Of a stretch of DNA of 64,000 nucleotides, positions 28,984 to 41,620 are shown in pieces. Below the pieces are notes generated by a model that ran no database searches, had not been told where the DNA came from, and worked only from the letters and a program-made list of their open reading frames with translations. Where the stretch lies: contig JAETTD010000007.1 in NCBI GenBank assembly GCA_021769295.1, forward strand, positions 1 to 64,000. The letters run 5' to 3'. The translations under genes were made by a program, and so were the position numbers. This stretch comes from Bacillota bacterium (GTDB lineage Bacteria > Bacillota > Clostridia > Peptostreptococcales > Anaerovoracaceae). The number at the start of each line of letters is the position of its first letter. Position 1 is the stretch's first letter.

Positions 28984-29280
28984 AACATAATTGCGTGAAA
29001 TCGCAGAAACGTTGTTGCTATGAGAACACGATTTCGGAAAAACATAACAGTTTTACGTGAAAACACAAAAACGTCGTAGCGCTGCTACGACGTTTTGCAT
29101 TTTCGCTAACATAATTGCATAAAACCACCAAATCGTGTAACCGGGGAGCTATCCGCAGTATACAAAAACCGGCAAACCCGTATACAAAGTATACGAAATC
29201 GCCGGAAAGGTATACTCAAGGTATACACATGAGCAAAAACCGTATACAAAGTATACGAAAACCCGAAATATGTATACCTC
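28984..29280 (+). repeat. Composite hairpin-repeat array: three ~62-bp units (TTRCGTGAAAAC core) followed by two units with GTATAC arms
   Basis: TTGCGTGAAATCGC 28991, TTACGTGAAAACAC 29053, TTGCATAAAACCAC 29115; CGTATACAAAGTATACG at 29179 and 29241; eight GTATAC within 29158-29277; 13-bp perfect stem 29068-29096. Confidence 0.8.
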
Positions 29281-29380: not shown

Positions 29381-29409
29381 TTGACATTATTACATATAAG
29401 AGTTAATAT
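29381..29409 (+). promoter_or_regulatory. Sigma-A promoter for leu/ilv operon
   Basis: TTGACA-N17-TAATAT. Confidence 0.7.
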
Positions 29410-29443
29410 ATCAGTATAAATTTTAAGAAGGAGAAGGATACCA

Positions 29444-29500
29444 ATGCAACAGGTCATTATACTCGGATTAGAACTAATTATCTCAAACAAAAATAATTAA
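29444..29500 (+). CDS. Branched-chain amino acid leader peptide MQQVIILGLELIISNKNN
   Basis: RBS AAGGAGAAGG at 29428; 8 of 18 residues are I/L/V; followed by terminator and leuA. Confidence 0.8.
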   Translation: MQQVIILGLELIISNKNN

Positions 29501-29556
29501 GCATTGATATTCTGCCTGAATCCGAGTAAATGAACTTATATGTATGTTAAAATTGA

Positions 29557-29593
29557 CCTCGTTTCTAATTTCCGGTAGAAACGAGGTTTTTTT
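29557..29593 (+). terminator. Attenuator terminator upstream of leuA
   Basis: CCTCGTTTCTA-ATTTCCGG-TAGAAACGAGG + T7, 11-bp perfect stem. Confidence 0.9.
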
Positions 29594-29619: not shown

Positions 29620-31338
29620 ATGACAACAGAAATTACAAGTAATGTTGCCGGCATGAAAAACCACACAAAATACAGCATAGGATATTTTATGCCGCCGGTG
29701 GAATCGACAAATTGGGTGAAAAAAGACCACATTGAAAAAGCTCCTATATGGTGCAGTGTTGACCTTAGAGACGGAAATCAGGCATTGGTAGTTCCGATGA
29801 ACCTTGATGAAAAGCTGAGCTTTTTCAAACTACTATGTTCACTCGGTTTTAAAGAAATAGAAGTAGGATTTCCTGCTGCATCGGAAACTGAATATGAATT
29901 TCTGAGAACACTTATAGAAAAAAACTTGATACCGGAGGATGTGACGATACAGGTTCTCACTCAGTCAAGAGAACACATAATACGCAAAACCTTCGAGGCT
30001 GTTGACGGAGCAAAAAACGTAATCATACATCTTTACAATTCAACATCCGTAGCTCAGAGAGAACAGGTATTCAGAAAGAGCAAAGAGGAGATAAAAAAGA
30101 TAGCCACATCGGGAGCCGAAATGATAAACGAATATGCAGATAAGTATCCCGATACCAACTTTACCGTCGAATATTCTCCTGAAAGCTTTACGGGAACGGA
30201 AATGGAATATGCCCTTGAGGTATGTAATGCTGTGATAGATATATGGCAGCCGAGACCTGACAGGAAGGTAATCATAAATCTTCCTGCAACGGTGTCCATG
30301 TCAATGCCGCATGTGTATGCTTCACAGATAGAATACATGAGCAATAACCTTAACTGCAGGGAAAACGTAATCGTATCCCTTCACCCTCACAATGACAGGG
30401 GAACGGCCGTAGCCGATTGCGAACTTGGAATCCTTGCAGGAGGAGACAGAGTGGAAGGCACTTTGTTCGGAAACGGAGAACGTACAGGAAACGCAGACAT
30501 CGTAACCGTTGCCATGAACATGTATTCCCACGGAGTGGATCCTGAACTTGATTTTACAAATATGCCGTACATAGTCGAAAAATACGAAGAGTTCACCGAC
30601 ATGAAAGTCCCTCCGAGACAGCCATACGGAGGAAAACTGGTATTTGCGGCATTTTCCGGTTCACATCAGGACGCAATAGCAAAAGGTATGCACTACAGAG
30701 AAGAGAACGAGCCGGACAAGTGGAACGTTCCTTATATTCCAATCGATCCTCATGATGTAAACAGAGTATATGAGGCAGACGTAATAAGAATAAACAGCCA
30801 GTCAGGTAAGGGCGGCGTGGCATACATTCTGGAAACAAATTACGGATACCATATACCTTCCGCCATGAGAGAAGAAATAGGCTACCTGATGAAACACGTT
30901 TCGGATGTTAAACATAAGGAACTGACGCCGGATAAAATCAACATGATTTTCAACAGCGAATATGTGAACAGAAAAGACAAATACGATTTGAGAGACGCAA
31001 CATTTAAACGACTGCCTCAATCGGCAAGCTTGGGCGACAACGGAATTGAAGCCGATATAGAAGTTTTAATCGACGGCAAGGCTTATAAGCTGGAAGGCAA
31101 AGGAAACGGCCGTCTCGACGCCGTAACTAACGCCCTCAGAAAGGGACCTTATAACATCGAATACGACTTTGTAACTTATGAAGAACACGCCCTTGAGGGA
31201 GAATCCAATTCAAGAGCTGCGGCATACGTAGCCATATCTGATAAAAAAGGTAAAATTTTCTGGGGAGTCGGAATTCATAACGATATAATCTACGCATCGG
31301 TAAACGCACTTATATCAGCTATAAACAGAGCATTTTAA
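29620..31338 (+). CDS. leuA: 2-isopropylmalate synthase
   Basis: [38 protein letters not shown]; 572 aa. Confidence 0.95.
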
Positions 31339-31351
31339 GGAGGTAGGCCAA

Positions 31352-32614
31352 ATGGGCATGACAATGACGCAAAAAATACTGGCAGACCATGCGGGACTTG
31401 AAAAAGTGCAGGCAGGTCAGTTGATTGAAGCTAAGTTGGATATGGTTTTGGGAAACGACATAACCTCTCCGGTAGCTATAAATGAATTTGAAAAAGCAGG
31501 CTTTGACAGCGTGTTCGACAAATCCAAAATTTCACTGGTTATGGACCACTTTACGCCTAACAAGGATATTAAAGCGGCGCAGCAGTGCAAACAGACGAGA
31601 ACCTTTGCAAGAAAGTTTGATATAGACAACTTCTTCGATGTAGGAAATGTAGGCATAGAACATGCGCTGCTTCCGGAAATGGGATTGGTTGCTTCCGGCG
31701 AGTGCATCATAGGAGCAGACTCGCATACCTGTACATACGGAGCTTTGGGCGCTTTCTCAACGGGAGTGGGAAGCACCGACATGGCTGCCGGAATGGCAAC
31801 GGGAAAGGCTTGGTTCAAAGTACCGGAAGCAATTAAAATAGAGCTTACCGGAAAACTGAATAAGTATGTTTCAGGAAAGGATGTAATCCTGCATCTTATA
31901 GGAATGATAGGCGTTGATGGCGCATTGTACAAATCCCTTGAATTTATGGGCGACGGATTAAAATCCCTTTCCATGGATGACAGACTGTGCATATCAAATA
32001 TGGCCATAGAAGCAGGCGCCAAGAACGGAATATTCATGGTGGATGAAGTCACCAGAGAATATATGAAAGGCAGAGTAAACAGAGAGTACAAAGTGTTTGA
32101 ACCTGATGAAGATGCAGAATACGAAAAGACCGTGACAATCGACCTTTCTCAGCTTAAGCCGACTGTGGCTCTTCCTCATCTGCCTGAAAACACAAAGACC
32201 ATAGACGAGATAGGCGAAATCAAAATAGACCAAGTGGTAATAGGCTCATGCACCAACGGCCGCTTGGAAGACATGAAAACAGCAGCGGAAATACTTAAGG
32301 GCAAGAAAGTTGCAAAGGATGTAAGATGCATAGTGATACCGGCCACCCAGAGCATATATAAAGAGTGCATCAAGGAAGGCTATCTCGATATATTTATAGA
32401 TGCCGGCTGCGCCGTATCTACTCCGACATGCGGACCTTGCCTTGGAGGATATATGGGCATACTTGCAGAACATGAGAGATGTGTCGCAACCACCAACAGA
32501 AACTTCATAGGAAGAATGGGACACAACCTTTCGGAAGTATATTTGGCAAACCCTGCAGTTGCTGCCGCATCGGCGGTAACAGGAAAAATCACTGACCCCA
32601 AGGAGGTAATGTAA
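31352..32614 (+). CDS. leuC: 3-isopropylmalate dehydratase large subunit
   Basis: [29 protein letters not shown]. Confidence 0.95.
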
Positions 32615-33094
32615 ATGAAGGCACAGGGAAGCGTATATAAATACGGAGATAATATAGACACGGATATAATCATTCCTGCAAGGTATCTGAACACCACAGA
32701 CAGCAAAGAACTGGCTTCTCACTGCATGGAACCTGTGGATGAAGATTTTTACAAAAAAGTGAAGACAGGTGATATAATGGTAGGTGGCTTTAACTTCGGA
32801 TGTGGCTCTTCAAGAGAACACGCTCCTATAGCCATAAAAGAATGCGGGGTTTCCTGCGTAATTGCAAAATCCTTTGCGAGGATATTTTACCGCAATGCCA
32901 TAAATATCGGCCTTGCCATTATGGAATGCCCGGAGGCTGCCGAAAACATAGAAGCAGGAGACGAGGTTTCGGTGGATTTTGAAACGGGAGTAATAACCGA
33001 CATAACAAAAAACAAAGAATATAAAGCCATGCCTTTTCCTGAATTTATAGATAACATGATAAAAAAAGGCGGACTTCTGAATTCAATAAAATAA
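32615..33094 (+). CDS. leuD: 3-isopropylmalate dehydratase small subunit
   Basis: [25 protein letters not shown]. Confidence 0.95.
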
Positions 33095-33119
33095 ATACGA
33101 ACATAAGAGAGGATAAAAT

Positions 33120-34331
33120 ATGCTGACATTAAAAGCATTTGAAGAGGCTACGGAAGTAGTTCAGAAAGTTGCAATTCAGACAAAGCTGGTATACAGCAGT
33201 TTTTTGAGCGAACAGACGGGAAACAAGGTCTATCTGAAACCTGAAAATCTGCAAGTGACAGGCGCTTATAAGCTGAGAGGAGCTTATTATAAGATAAGCA
33301 CTCTTACAGACGAAGAAAGAAGCAAAGGCTTGATTACGGCTTCCGCCGGAAATCATGCCCAGGGAGTTGCTTATGCAGCCAAGGCATACGGATGCAAAGC
33401 CGTAATAGTAATGCCTACCACCACACCTCTTATGAAGGTGGACAGAACAAAGAGCTACGGCGCAGAAGTGGTCCTGTACGGAAACGTGTATGACGAAGCT
33501 GCGGAACATGCAGCCAAACTGGCAGAGGAAAAGGGCTATACCTTTATTCATCCTTTTGACGATTTGGCAGTAGCTACAGGTCAGGGAACCATCGCCATGG
33601 AGATCGTAAAAGAACTGCCGTTGGTTGATTACATACTTGTTCCTGTAGGAGGAGGCGGACTTGCAACGGGAGTATCCACACTGGCAAAGCTTCTCAATCC
33701 TAAGATTAAGGTAATAGGTGTGGAACCTGAGGGTGCAAACTGCCTGCAAGCTTCCATAAAGGCAGGCAAACCGGTTACACTTAAAAACGTTTCCACAATC
33801 GCTGACGGTACCGCTGTAAAGACTCCGGGTAAAAACATTTTCCCTTATCTGCAGGCAGGCCTTGACGATGTGATTACAGTCAAAGATGACGAATTAGTGG
33901 TAGCTTTCCTCGATATGGTGGAAAATCACAAATATATAGTTGAAAATTCCGGATTGCTTACGGTAGCTGCTTTAAAACACCTTGATGTAAAGGGCAAAAA
34001 AGTCGTATCCATACTGAGCGGCGGCAACATGGACATCATAACCATGTCTTCGGTAGTACAGCTCGGACTGATTATGAGAGACAGAATCTTTACCATTTCC
34101 GTTCTCTTGCCTGACAAGCCGGGTGAGCTTGTGAGGGTAGCTTCTATCATAGCAAAAGAGCAGGGCAACGTTATTAAGCTTGAACACAATCAGTTTGTAA
34201 GTACCAACCGTACAGCAGCAGTGGAGCTTAAGATAACCATAGAAGCTTTTGGACCGGAGCATAAAAACTCCATATGCAAGGCTCTCGAAGCGGACGGATA
34301 TAAACCTAAACAGATAAGCGTACTGATGTAG
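33120..34331 (+). CDS. ilvA: Threonine ammonia-lyase with C-terminal ACT domain
   Basis: [26 protein letters not shown]. Confidence 0.93.
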
Positions 34332-34350
34332 GAACCTGAAAGGAGATACA

Positions 34351-35424
34351 ATGAATTATAAGATAGCGGTGATACCCGGCGACGGTATCGGTCCTGAAGT
34401 TACACGGGAAGCGGTCAAAGTCCTTGACGCCGTCGCAAAGAAATTCGGACACACCTTTGAATACAACTACCTGCTTGCAGGCGGCGCTGCCATAGACGAA
34501 AAGGGCAAATGCCTGCCGGAAGAAACCGTAAAGGCAGCAAAGGACAGCGACGCCGTTCTTTTAGGCGCTGTGGGAGGCCCTAAATGGGATAACCTGCCCG
34601 GCGAGGAAAGACCTGAAAAAGCCTTGCTCGGACTCAGAAAGGCACTGGGACTTTTTGCCAATCTAAGACCGGCAATCATGTTCGATGAACTTAAAGGAGC
34701 TTGTCCTCTCAAAGAGGAAAAGGTGGAAGGCGGACTTGATATACTTGTAGTCAGAGAACTTACAGGAGGCATATATTTCGGAGAGCGGGGAGTAAAAGAC
34801 ACCGACGATATGGGCAAAGCTGCCTACGATGTGGAAATGTATTCCGAAAAGGAAGTAGAAAGAGTAGCCGAAATCGCTTTCAGCATGGCTATGAAGAGAA
34901 ATAAAAAAGTCACAAGCGTAGACAAGGCAAACGTACTGGAAAGTTCAAGACTTTGGAGAAAGACCACTGCAAAAGTCGCTGAAAAATATCCTGAAGTTTC
35001 TCTGGAAAACTTTTATGTGGACAATGCAGCAATGCAGCTTGTATATAATCCGAAACAGTTTGACGTAATAGTTACGAGCAACATATTCGGCGACATCCTG
35101 TCGGATGAGGCCAGCATGATTACAGGTTCCATAGGAATGCTGCCTTCGGCAAGCCTTGCTGAAGGAGAGTTCGGAATGTACGAACCTGTCCATGGCTCCG
35201 CACCTGATATCGCAGGCACAGGAAAAGCCAATCCAATGGCGGCCGTACTTTCTGCAGCGATGATGTTAAAATATACTTTCGGATTGTCAGAGGAATCCGA
35301 CGCCATAGAAAATGCAGTCAAGAAAGTGCTTGGCGAGGGATACAGAACTCCTGATATAATGACAGAAGGCAAAACCCTTATAACCACGTCGGAAGCAGGT
35401 ACTCTGATTGCAGACAGAATATAA
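34351..35424 (+). CDS. leuB: 3-isopropylmalate dehydrogenase
   Basis: [30 protein letters not shown]. Confidence 0.96.
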
Positions 35425-35441
35425 GGCGAGGATAAGATAAC

Positions 35442-36752
35442 ATGCATAATTTAACAGAGGATTTAATTATATATTCCGGATATGAAAATCAGTCTGTTTT
35501 GGCAAAAATGGCTGAACTTTGCAGCCTGCCCGGCAGGCTTGACGAAGGGCATAAGAAACAGGCAGGGACATGTGCTTCCGAAGTTGTCCGGGAAATTATA
35601 AAAACATCTTTTGAATACGGACTGAGCGGAAATCTGTGGCACGGATACATAGCTCTTTACATAGCGTTAAACGAAAATCCTTTTTCGCTGGCTTATGAAA
35701 TGACGTCCGGCGCCCCGAAACAAGGCGGAGTGGATGAGCTTGCAAAACATGATTTGAAAATTTTAAAGGAGTTGTTCGACTATGACTTGTCTCTCTTAGA
35801 CGACAAGCTAAAAGTGAACTACTTTTCGGTATTAAAGAATTGCGAAAACTCCGATGCCAAGCTGTCCGACCAAGGCATAAACGTAAAATATCTGAAAGAT
35901 ATGCTCGAAACAGCAAAGAACGATGAAGAGTTCTTTGCTTGCACGGTTTCATTCTATAAGGAAAAAGGCGTTGGGCTTATAGGTCTGAACAAAGCATTTA
36001 CCGTAAAAGGCGATGAAGACAGTTACAGACTTTCCCCTGTAAGAGTTACGGAAAAAGTCAATCTTTCCGACCTTGTAGGATATGAAGTCCAAAAACAGAA
36101 GCTTACGGAAAATACGGCAGCCTTTTTAAAAGGCAAGCCGGCCAACAATGTCCTTTTGTACGGAGACGGAGGGACAGGCAAATCAACAAGCGTAAGAGCG
36201 ATAGCAAGCCGATATTATGACGAAGGGCTTCGCATGATTCAGATATACAGACATCAGATGAAGCATCTCAACCGCATAATATCTGAAATCAAAAACAGAA
36301 ATTATAAATTTATAATTTACATGGACGATTTGTCTTTCGAGGATTTTGAAACGGAATACAAATACCTGAAAGCAGTCATTGAAGGAGGTCTTGAACCAAG
36401 ACCTGAAAACGTGCTTATATATGCGACTTCCAACAGAAGACACCTGATTAAAGAAACATGGAAGGACAGAACGGACATGGAGCATACAGGCGATTTGCAC
36501 AGAAGTGATTCCATGGAAGAAAAACTCAGTCTGGCAGAGAGATTCGGAGTGCAGATATACTACGGAAAGCCTACCATAGAAGAGTTTCACAAAATAGTAG
36601 AAGCCTTGGCTTTAAGAGAAAACATACATACTGATATGGAAGTTCTCCACGGCGAAGCTACCAAATGGGAAATTCGCCACGGAGGAATTTCGGGCAGAAG
36701 CGCAAGACAATTTATCGACTACATAAAAGGAACGGAGGACGATTTAAAATGA
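35442..36752 (+). CDS. DUF815-type AAA+ ATPase
   Basis: [12 protein letters not shown] Walker [21 protein letters not shown]. Confidence 0.88.
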
Positions 36753-38416
36753 AAATGACAGGCGCAGAACTGGTTATGAACGTGCTGCTGGAACACGGCG
36801 TAGATACCGTGTTCGGATATCCGGGAGGAACAGCTTTGTTCTTGTATGATGAATTATATAAATACAGCGATAGGATAAAGCATGTTTTGGTTGCTCACGA
36901 GCAGGGCGGCGCACATGCGGCAGACGGATATGCAAGAGCAACCGGAAAGACGGGAGTTGCATTTTCCACCAGCGGACCGGGAGCAACAAATCTTGTAACG
37001 GGTATAGCTACGGCATATATGGACAGCATTCCTACCGTATTTATAACGGCAAATGTAGGAAAGCATCTGATAGGCCGTGATGCATTTCAGGAAGTATGCA
37101 TCACCGGTGTGACTTTCCCTATTACAAAACACAATTATTTTGTAAACAATAAAGAAGATTTGGCAGATGCTTTAAGAAACGCTTTCAGAATTGCTAATGA
37201 GGGTCGAAAGGGACCTGTACTTGTGGACATAACCAAAGACGTTACACAGGCAATAGTTGACTATGAACCTGTAAAACCTTATCCGCTGCGTAAAGTGGAA
37301 ACAGAAAACTGCGAAGCAAAGGCTGAGAAGTTTGCCAAATACATAAATTCCTCAAGCAAACCTGTAATTCAGGTGGGCGGAGGCGTAATAGCGTCAGAAA
37401 GCTATAAAGAAGTTATTGCTCTTGCCGAAAAGGCAGATATACCTGTGGTAACCACTCTCATGGGCATGGGAGCAGTTCCGTCCTCTGATAAGAGATATTT
37501 CGGAATGCTTGGAATGCATGGCTCATATGCAGCCAATAAATGTATTGCCGAAGCTGATTTGATTTTGACTTTAGGATGCAGATTCAGCGACAGAGTGGCT
37601 CTTAAGCCTGACCAGTTCGGTAAAAAAGCAAAAATTCTTCAGGTAGATATAGATAAGAGCGAAATAAACAAAAACGTCAGCGTAACAGATTGCATAATAG
37701 GCGATTGCAAAGATGTTTTGGACGTGCTTATTCCAATGGTCAATGAGGCAGACCACAGCCAGTGGCTGGCTCAGATAAACAAATGGAATGAAGAAAAACC
37801 TATGAAGGTTAAAGAATGCTATGGAAAGATGAATCCGCAGGAAATCATAGAATATATCTGTGACAATACTGATAAGGAAACCATATATGTTACCGACGTA
37901 GGACAGCATCAGATGTGGGCGGCTCAATATGTTAAACAGACAAAACCGAGAAATTTCCTTTCCAGCGGAGGTCTCGGAACCATGGGATTCGGTTACGGCG
38001 CAGCCATAGGCGCACAGATGGGAAATCCGGACAAGAGAGTAATCCATTTCACCGGAGACGGTTCTTTCCATATGAACCTCAATGAGGCATGCACAGCGGT
38101 TTCAAACAATTTGCCTATAATAACCGTAATCTTTAACAACAGGGTTTTAGGTATGGTATATCAATGGCAGACAGCATTTTACGGACAGAGATATTCCAAT
38201 ACGACTCCCGAAAGAAAGACCGATTTTGTAAAACTCATAGAAGCTTTCGGAGGTCACGGCTTTAGGGTAAACACCATGGAAGAGCTTAAAGAAGCTTATG
38301 AAAAGGCGCTTAAGATAAACGGTCCCGTATGGATTGACTGCAACATCGCAGTTGAAGACAAGGTGTTACCGATGATTCCAAATGGCAAAACCATTGACGA
38401 CATGTTGTTTGAATAG
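36749..38416 (+). CDS. ilvB: Acetolactate synthase large subunit (start revised from 36665)
   Basis: TPP enzyme; VFGYPGGTALFLYDEL; ATGA overlap with previous gene. Confidence 0.95.
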   Translation: MKMTGAELVMNVLLEHGVDTVFGYPGGTALFLYDELYKYSDRIKHVLVAHEQGGAHAADGYARATGKTGVAFSTSGPGATNLVTGIATAYMDSIPTVFITANVGKHLIGRDAFQEVCITGVTFPITKHNYFVNNKEDLADALRNAFRIANEGRKGPVLVDITKDVTQAIVDYEPVKPYPLRKVETENCEAKAEKFAKYINSSSKPVIQVGGGVIASESYKEVIALAEKADIPVVTTLMGMGAVPSSDKRYFGMLGMHGSYAANKCIAEADLILTLGCRFSDRVALKPDQFGKKAKILQVDIDKSEINKNVSVTDCIIGDCKDVLDVLIPMVNEADHSQWLAQINKWNEEKPMKVKECYGKMNPQEIIEYICDNTDKETIYVTDVGQHQMWAAQYVKQTKPRNFLSSGGLGTMGFGYGAAIGAQMGNPDKRVIHFTGDGSFHMNLNEACTAVSNNLPIITVIFNNRVLGMVYQWQTAFYGQRYSNTTPERKTDFVKLIEAFGGHGFRVNTMEELKEAYEKALKINGPVWIDCNIAVEDKVLPMIPNGKTIDDMLFE

Positions 38417-38432
38417 GTGAAAGGGGACAGAC

Positions 38433-38906
38433 ATGAAAAAGGAAGTAGTTAGTATTTACGTTGATAATAAGGCCAACGTATTGACAAGAGTTGTGAGCCT
38501 TTACGGCAGAAGGGGTTTTAACATCGACTCCCTCACCGTTTCTGCGACCAACGACCCGGATATTTCAAGAATAACCATAGTATTTGAGGGAGATAACCTT
38601 ACCCTTAATCAGATTATTGCTCAGACGGAAAAGCTGGAAATTGTCAGAAGTATCAAGACCCTTGAAGGCAAGAACAGTTTCTTCAGAGAACTCCTCATGG
38701 TCAAGATAGCAGCAGACAAGGAAAAGAGGAGAGAAATAAAAGAAATCACCGATATATACAGAGCTAAGATTATCAGCCTTGAAAAGGATATGATGGTTCT
38801 TGAACTTACGGGAGCCCCGGATAAGCTGGATGCTTTTCTGAATATACTTGATGATTACGATATAGTTGATATTTGCAGAACAGGTGTCACCGGTATCGAA
38901 AAATAA
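38433..38906 (+). CDS. ilvN: Acetolactate synthase small subunit
   Basis: ACT domain; VLTRVVSLYGRRGFNIDSLTV. Confidence 0.95.
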   Translation: MKKEVVSIYVDNKANVLTRVVSLYGRRGFNIDSLTVSATNDPDISRITIVFEGDNLTLNQIIAQTEKLEIVRSIKTLEGKNSFFRELLMVKIAADKEKRREIKEITDIYRAKIISLEKDMMVLELTGAPDKLDAFLNILDDYDIVDICRTGVTGIEK

Positions 38907-38920
38907 ATAATTAAAAATAA

Positions 38921-39931
<1,011 letters not shown>

Positions 39932-39955
39932 TCGGTTTTCGAGAGGTTATTAACT

Positions 39956-41620
39956 ATGAAATTAAGAAGTAAACAGGTTACCGAAGGCGTAGAAAAGGCC
40001 CCGATGAGGAGCCTGTTCTATGCTATGGGATATACTGAAGAAGAGCTGTCAAAACCGCTTATAGCGGTGGTTTCGGCTCACAGCGAAATAGTTCCGGGAC
40101 ACATGCATCTTGATAAAATTACAGAGGCTGTAAAAGCAGGCGTAAGAATGGCGGGAGGCACACCGATAATGGTGCCTGCCATAGGAGTCTGCGACGGAAT
40201 AGCCATGGGACATATCGGAATGAAATATTCTCTGGCAAGCCGTGAACTTATTGCAGACAGCGTAGAGACCATGGTAATGGCTCACGCTTTTGACGGAGCG
40301 GTTCTTGTTCCAAACTGCGATAAGATAGTTCCCGGCATGGTCATGTCAGCAGTAAGAATGAACATACCTGCAATAGTATGTTCAGGCGGTCCTATGATGT
40401 CAGGTCTTGTAGGCGGCGTTGAAACCAGCCTTTCAAAGATGTTCGAGGCTGTAGGAGCAAGAAAAGCCGGCATTATAGATGACGAGGGACTGCTGGAATA
40501 TGAGCAGAATACCTGTCCGGGATGCGGCTCATGCTCCGGAATGTATACTGCCAACAGCATGAACTGTCTGTGCGAAGCAATCGGAATTGCGCTGCCGGGT
40601 AACGGAAGCATTCCGGCAGTTTCAAGCCGCAGAATCATGCTTGCAAAACATGCAGGTATGGCAGTTATGAATCTGGTTGAAAAAGACATCAAGGCGAGAG
40701 ACATAATAAACGAAAAGTCAATCAGAAACGCCATAGCATGCGACATGGCCCTCGGCTGTTCATCCAACAGCGTGCTTCATCTTCTTGCTATTGCCCATGA
40801 GGCAGGAGTTAAAGTTGATTTGAACATGTTTAACGAAATCAGCCAGGTAACTCCGAACCTGTGTCACTTGGCACCTGCCGGAGGAACCCACATGCATGAC
40901 CTTGAAAATGCAGGAGGAGTTCCTGCAGTAATGGCTCAGCTGGCGTCAAAAGGCCTGATAGACACATCGCTTCCTACAGTCAGCGGCAAGACCGTAGGTG
41001 AAAATATAAAAGGTCGCATTATCAAGGATGAAAATTCCATTAGACCGATTGATAATCCTTACAGCAGTACCGGCGGAATAGCTATCCTCTGGGGAAATAT
41101 CGCAAAGGACGGCTGCGTAGTAAAGAGAAGCGCAGTGGCTCCCGAAATGCTGGTTCATTCAGGACCTGCCAGGGTTTTTGACAGCGAAGAGGAAGCTATC
41201 GAAGCTATCTATGCAGGAGATATAAAGGACGGTCAGGTAGTTGTCATCAGATACGAAGGCCCTAAGGGAGGACCGGGCATGAGAGAAATGCTCAATCCTA
41301 CCAGCGCTCTTGCAGGAATGGGCCTTGATAAGACCGTGGCCCTTATTACGGACGGCCGCTTCAGCGGAGCAAGCAGGGGAGCATCCATAGGACACGTAAG
41401 TCCTGAAGCCGCTGACGGAGGCACCATAGGACTTATCGAGGAAGGCGATATAATAGATATCAATATCCCTGAATATTCCATAAATGCGAGAGTATCCGAC
41501 GAAGAATTTGAGAAGCGCAAAAAATCTTATGTGAAACCTGAGCCGAAAATAAAGAGCGGTTGGCTCGAAAGATATTCAAGACTGGTTTCATCAGCAAATA
41601 CAGGCGCCGTTCTTAAATAA
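39956..41620 (+). CDS. ilvD: Dihydroxyacid dehydratase
   Basis: [41 protein letters not shown]. Confidence 0.97.

Follow-up and report, generated by a model that had tools for sequence, protein, structure and literature searches.

In the window examined here (the whole 64,000-nucleotide stretch of contig JAETTD010000007.1), the leu–ilv operon is predicted, with a probability that we place at about 0.92, to be controlled by a ribosome-mediated transcription attenuator located upstream of leuA. The leader contains a short ORF with conserved isoleucine, leucine and valine codons and three conserved stems, two of which show covariation. Leader-peptide attenuation is a textbook mechanism, and the mechanism itself is already known; the part that is useful to specialists is the apparent replacement of a T-box within the family, together with the match between the control codons and the content of the operon.

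The operon starts with leuA (29620–31338, forward strand), which encodes 2-isopropylmalate synthase (NCBIfam NF002991, E = 5e-238), and continues on the same strand (31352–41620) in the order leuA–leuC–leuD–ilvA–leuB–DUF815 ATPase–ilvB–ilvN–ilvC–ilvD, with all of the genes in one direction and separated by small gaps. The products of leuC, ilvA and leuB are the isopropylmalate dehydratase large subunit (assigned by model), threonine ammonia-lyase and isopropylmalate dehydrogenase, respectively, and those of ilvB/ilvN, ilvC and ilvD are the acetolactate synthase large and small subunits, ketol-acid reductoisomerase and dihydroxy-acid dehydratase; leuD (isopropylmalate dehydratase small subunit) was assigned by position and homology only. 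With the exception of the transaminase, the leucine, isoleucine and valine routes are all covered by the operon. The gene order is the same in four congeners as far as their contigs reach, and the contig of a fifth congener stops after leuB. The gene for the DUF815 ATPase (35442–36752) keeps its position between leuB and ilvB in four congeners, at an identity of 53–61%, compared with 70–93% for the neighbouring genes.

A candidate sigma-70-type promoter, TTGACA-17-TAATAT (29381–29409, forward strand), lies downstream of the preceding operon and ahead of the leader; matches with its score of 10/12 in the consensus scan are by themselves no commoner than expected by chance, and a TTGACA-like hexamer is found at the same position in the congeners with aligned upstream sequence. 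The promoter is followed by the Shine–Dalgarno sequence AAGGAGAAGG (29428–29437), with a purine-rich Shine–Dalgarno sequence at the same position in the congeners, and by an ORF of 18 codons (29444–29500, stop codon TAA) encoding MQQVIILGLELIISNKNN, which contains four isoleucines, three leucines and one valine, such that an ORF with a predicted ribosome-binding site lies between the candidate promoter and the first gene. Strand 1, ACTCGGATT (29461–29469), lies over the Leu-Gly-Leu control codons and forms a 9-bp inverted repeat with AATCCGAGT (29519–29527). Strand 2 consists of an outer part, UUCUGCC (29510–29516), which is located 9 nt past the leader stop and forms the 5' side of the predicted antiterminator, and an inner part, AAAUGA (29528–29533). 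The intrinsic terminator (29557–29593) is composed of an 11-bp stem (29557–29586) and a T7 run (29587–29593), and 26 nt separate this run from the leuA ATG at 29620. All of these elements are on the forward strand. The original prediction had described the ORF with its ribosome-binding site and composition, the inverted repeat and the terminator, and all three were found as described, the repeat forming a stem that covaries. Further upstream, between an oxidoreductase operon and the leu promoter, the stretch 29158–29277 contains eight GTATAC palindromes within 120 bp, built on CGTATACAAAGTATACGAAA. GTATACAAAGTATAC occurs at 23 places in the source genome, several of them as pairs 62 bp apart, and is absent from five congeners; the repeat, roughly 120 bp long, is dispersed in the genome and specific to the species.

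The leader precedes leuA in each of the six species of the genus that were compared (MQQVIILGLELIISNKNN, MMSIIIILGLELIILNKIILN, MQHNILLGLQVIIIMNDNK, MLAIILLGLNVNIPDKIIEH, MAYIILLGLQLVISPQDNMR and MFNILLLGLVIIDNNCTSQVFSA), and the isoleucine, leucine and valine codons are kept while the nucleotides change, including by synonymous change; the codon runs for which the original prediction had proposed a comparison of relatives are thus conserved. The LeuA proteins of the congeners are 78 to 85% identical to that of the window. A covariance model built from the six leaders was run over 352 genomes of the family, the comparison genomes including metagenome assemblies, and its matches were limited to the genus and one further contig, a 2.3-kb contig of genome G171 (C17) with a seventh leader, MLHIILLGVVLVI (E = 3e-14). 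Since the filters of the model were strict and the leader of genome G208 discussed below was missed, other diverged leaders may exist. Contig C17 carries the genus-type leader and the start of leuA, and because G171 also encodes a more distant LeuA of its own, with a T-box upstream, this small contig was probably mis-binned from a member of the genus; possibly it reflects horizontal transfer. One contig in a bin labelled Bacteroides sp. (JAETOX010000296.1) is evidently mis-binned: its leader is that of the window, and the two LeuA proteins are 99% identical.

Across the seven leaders, isoleucine, leucine and valine account for 66 of 127 residues, compared with 37.6 ± 4.8 in open shuffles (0/2000), whereas the other two reading frames contain fewer of these residues and are mostly interrupted by stops. 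The leucine codons in the seven leaders are TTA (12), CTA (7), CTC (6), TTG (1), CTG (1) and CTT (0); in the neighbouring genes CTT accounts for 36% of the leucine codons, CTG for 25% and CTA for 1%. The amino acids made by the operon are therefore both enriched and conserved among the leader codons.

The folding energy of the 150-nt leader is −40.4 kcal/mol (z = −5.1); for the terminator by itself it is −15.4 kcal/mol (z = −5.0). A 10-bp complementarity between the leader and the downstream segment was reached in 27 of 5000 mononucleotide shuffles. For the strand 1:2 stem together with the terminator in the seven sequences, 96% of the cells are paired, compared with 28–52% when the partners are slid, and six pairs are changed on both sides, compared with 1.8 in shuffles (covariation was also tested on six sequences); in the terminator stem, 77 of 77 cells pair, and an intrinsic terminator with a covarying stem thus precedes the first gene. 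The predicted antiterminator consists of an outer helix, in which UUCUGCC pairs with GGUAGAA (29574–29580) at the loop end and the start of the 3' arm of the terminator, and an inner helix, in which AAAUGA pairs with UCGUUU (29559–29564) of the 5' arm. The outer pairs are kept in 98% and the inner pairs in 93% of cases in the seven sequences, with 96% of the cells paired overall, compared with 40–52% when slid. Since the variation in these helices is no greater than in shuffles, it is conservation and not covariation that points to a mutually exclusive antiterminator which stalling would free. The original prediction had instead linked TTAGAA (29468) to TTCTAA (29563) in the 5' arm of the terminator; the two motifs are present and complementary, but their pairing is unconserved in the relatives and was rejected as the antiterminator in favour of the two helices described above.

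In folds in which a ribosome was taken to occupy strand 1 and the transcript ended short of a complete terminator, the outer antiterminator helix was part of the minimum-energy fold in five of the six species, whereas static folding of the complete transcript favoured the terminator in all six; the switch must therefore be kinetic. In one genome (G001) the strand 1:2 stem is composed mostly of A-U and G-U pairs and lies outside the minimum-energy fold. In six of the seven leaders the stop either precedes UUCUGCC by 1–9 nt or lies just behind it, so that a terminating ribosome would cover strand 2; in the seventh, from G171, the stop lies about 30 nt before strand 2.

The translation of the leader, the stalling, the termination and the amino acids sensed are predicted from these sequence features as follows. 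When enough charged tRNA-Leu, tRNA-Ile and tRNA-Val is available, the ribosome would complete the 18-codon leader and reach the stop just before strand 2, where it would block the antiterminator and leave strand 1 free to pair with 29519–29527, and the 11-bp terminator would then halt RNA polymerase before leuA. In a shortage of leucine, isoleucine or valine, the ribosome would stall within V-I-I-L-G-L-E-L-I-I and cover strand 1, such that strand 2 would pair with the 5' arm, the loop and the start of the 3' arm of the terminator and allow readthrough into the operon. Leucine is probably the main signal, via the CTC, TTA and CTA codons.

The original prediction had proposed ribosome-mediated attenuation rather than a T-box, and this preference is well supported by the conservation of the leader, the covariation, the alternative structures, the rare leucine codons and the content of the operon. 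If the leader were instead a degenerate or unusual T-box, uncharged tRNA-Leu would bind the RNA directly and the ORF would be incidental. This idea draws on the family context, since most other genera of the family have T-boxes at leuA: the T-box core motif was present at 44 of 59 leuA upstream regions sampled from these genera, and the Rfam T-box model matched all seven candidates from relatives that were submitted (E = 2e-12 or better), leaving the G208 leader unmatched. Of the other 15 upstream regions, most have, on inspection, a promoter near leuA and no evident attenuator, and one is that of G208. The leuA upstream region of G246 (C34) has a T-box-like terminator arm, GGCCTTCGTCTCTTG, without a T-box core and is possibly a decayed T-box. 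The motif AGGUGG in the terminator region of the window also loosely resembles the T-box core. However, an Rfam search of the leader gave no T-box match at the gathering score, and none appeared among the weaker hits up to E = 10, as the original prediction had held from reading the sequence; neither a stem I with a specifier codon nor a core before the terminator, which characterize T-boxes (RF00230), is present, the roughly 90 nt from the promoter to strand 2 contain no stem I, and it is the codons and not T-box motifs that track conservation. A T-box reading of this leader is thus very improbable. At the gathering score, the whole window gave no Rfam match, and the Rfam leader families of enterobacterial amino-acid operons were not among the leader matches up to E = 10; weak matches to PyrR, L10 and other families (E above 0.6) are put down to the presence of a hairpin with a T-run behind it.

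Alternatively, the terminator and the stems could be controlled by the binding of a protein or small ligand, with the ORF only coupling translation or stabilizing the RNA, as has been suggested for the actinobacterial LEU element, where a leucine-rich ORF before leuA is not explained by classical attenuation (PMC1262725). The conservation of UUCUGCC could in principle reflect a binding site, but it is accounted for by pairing with GGYRGAA, and the rare leucine codons, the codon content that follows the operon content and the clear intrinsic terminator all make such a mechanism unlikely. Another objection is that the short ORF is spurious and the terminator an ordinary one remaining from the operon upstream. 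The leader peptide alone is indeed unexceptional (about 2% under the codon composition of the neighbouring genes), and a scan with loose criteria found eight other short ORFs in the window that are rich in isoleucine, leucine and valine and have a motif similar to a Shine–Dalgarno sequence. Against this, a candidate promoter separates the upstream operon from the leader, and six species share the arrangement, with both covariation and synonymous change; the conservation of these residues and the stem covariation raise the leader above chance, and we give coincidence hardly any weight.

In the source genome, T-boxes were found before genes for ValRS, IleRS, a TrpB-like protein and an ABC substrate-binding protein (named by reading the translations), and since they are kept before ValRS and IleRS the T-box system as such has not been lost; the genus shows no sign of having exchanged its T-boxes for leader peptides in general. 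The T-boxes at the TrpB-like and ABC substrate-binding genes occur in a genus in which trpE was not found, and tryptophan uptake and salvage are possibly under T-box control. On visual inspection, the sequence before the his genes has neither an evident leader peptide nor an evident T-box.

The leuA gene of G208 (C99) is preceded by a leader, MLLLPLLKLDNSHNSNLSP, that is rich in leucine and contains no isoleucine or valine, with the codons TTG TTA CTA CCA CTA TTA AAG CTA. Behind it lie a terminator and an alternative helix (UUCGCAUAA with UUAUGCGGA) whose layout is that of the genus leader, and a mini-ORF, ATG GAC TGA, overlaps the start codon of MLLLPLLKLDNSHNSNLSP and lies nearer to the Shine–Dalgarno sequence. 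The operon of G208 is leuA–leuC–leuD–leuB with a divergent ilvB, and ilvA, ilvN, ilvC and ilvD were not found in the roughly 15 kb that were read; the leucine-only leader at an operon without ilv genes indicates that codon content follows operon content. In the LeuA tree, G208 is the sister of the genus (support 0.999), with T-box lineages around both and weak deeper nodes. The simplest reading is that a leader peptide replaced the T-box once, in the common ancestor of the genus and the G208 leuA lineage, and that the control codons were later broadened from leucine to leucine, isoleucine and valine as ilvA and ilvBNCD joined, a scenario for which we consider the chances to be even. An independent origin of the two leaders is also possible, because the leaders are not matched to each other by the model and the G208 bin has an estimated contamination of 8%. 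Among Firmicutes, T-boxes exchanged for leader peptides have been described at histidine genes (PMC2965389), and a literature search that reached few subscription journals found no report for leuA in this group. If a single replacement took place, it would offer a traceable case of sensor exchange followed by retuning. The attenuator, in a lineage in which the T-box is the rule at leuA, provides a compact system for studying the substitution of one RNA sensor for another under continued regulation and the adjustment of control codons to the gene content of an operon. T-box models alone would overlook the main leucine, isoleucine and valine operon in predictions of regulation in these uncultured bacteria.

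The attenuator belongs to a known kind, since branched-chain leader-peptide attenuation is well established for enterobacteria, has mutant support in Staphylococcus aureus and has been predicted for Lactococcus, Streptococcus and Corynebacterium (PMC5794164). The S. aureus ilv–leu attenuator, which lies before ilvD, is likewise from the Bacillota and has an isoleucine- and leucine-rich leader (26 amino acids) with a downstream terminator, lacks a T-box and is conserved within its genus (PMC5794164). The operon order and the leader sequence differ, and the antiterminator proposed for S. aureus sequesters the poly-U tail (PMC5794164), whereas that of the window would compete for the terminator arms; the S. 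aureus attenuator is backed by mutants, whereas that of the window is predicted from sequence. The leucine T-box (RF00230) at leuA elsewhere in the family serves the same gene and the same purpose, antitermination on a shortage of charged tRNA-Leu, but reads the tRNA directly without a leader peptide and is absent at the leuA of the window. The actinobacterial LEU element likewise has a leucine-rich ORF upstream of leuA, but it forms a pseudoknot with a base stem at the leuA Shine–Dalgarno sequence, and classical attenuation was judged unlikely (PMC1262725), whereas the window has a clear intrinsic terminator and a predicted antiterminator. The G208 leader shares the layout and belongs to the sister LeuA lineage, but differs in its leucine-only peptide, in its leuACDB operon without ilv genes and in being unmatched by the genus model. 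The leu, ilvGMEDA and ilvBN attenuators of Escherichia coli and Salmonella likewise combine a short leader ORF, leucine, isoleucine or valine control codons including the rare CUA (PMC1183508), competing stems and an intrinsic terminator before the leu or ilv genes, and in the Salmonella leu leader, where CUA is the control codon, its change to CUG lowered the sensitivity (PMC1183508). These systems are from another phylum and have no detectable sequence similarity to the leader described here (no Rfam leader match), in which one operon covers all three pathways and the predicted antiterminator also engages the loop and the start of the 3' arm of the terminator.
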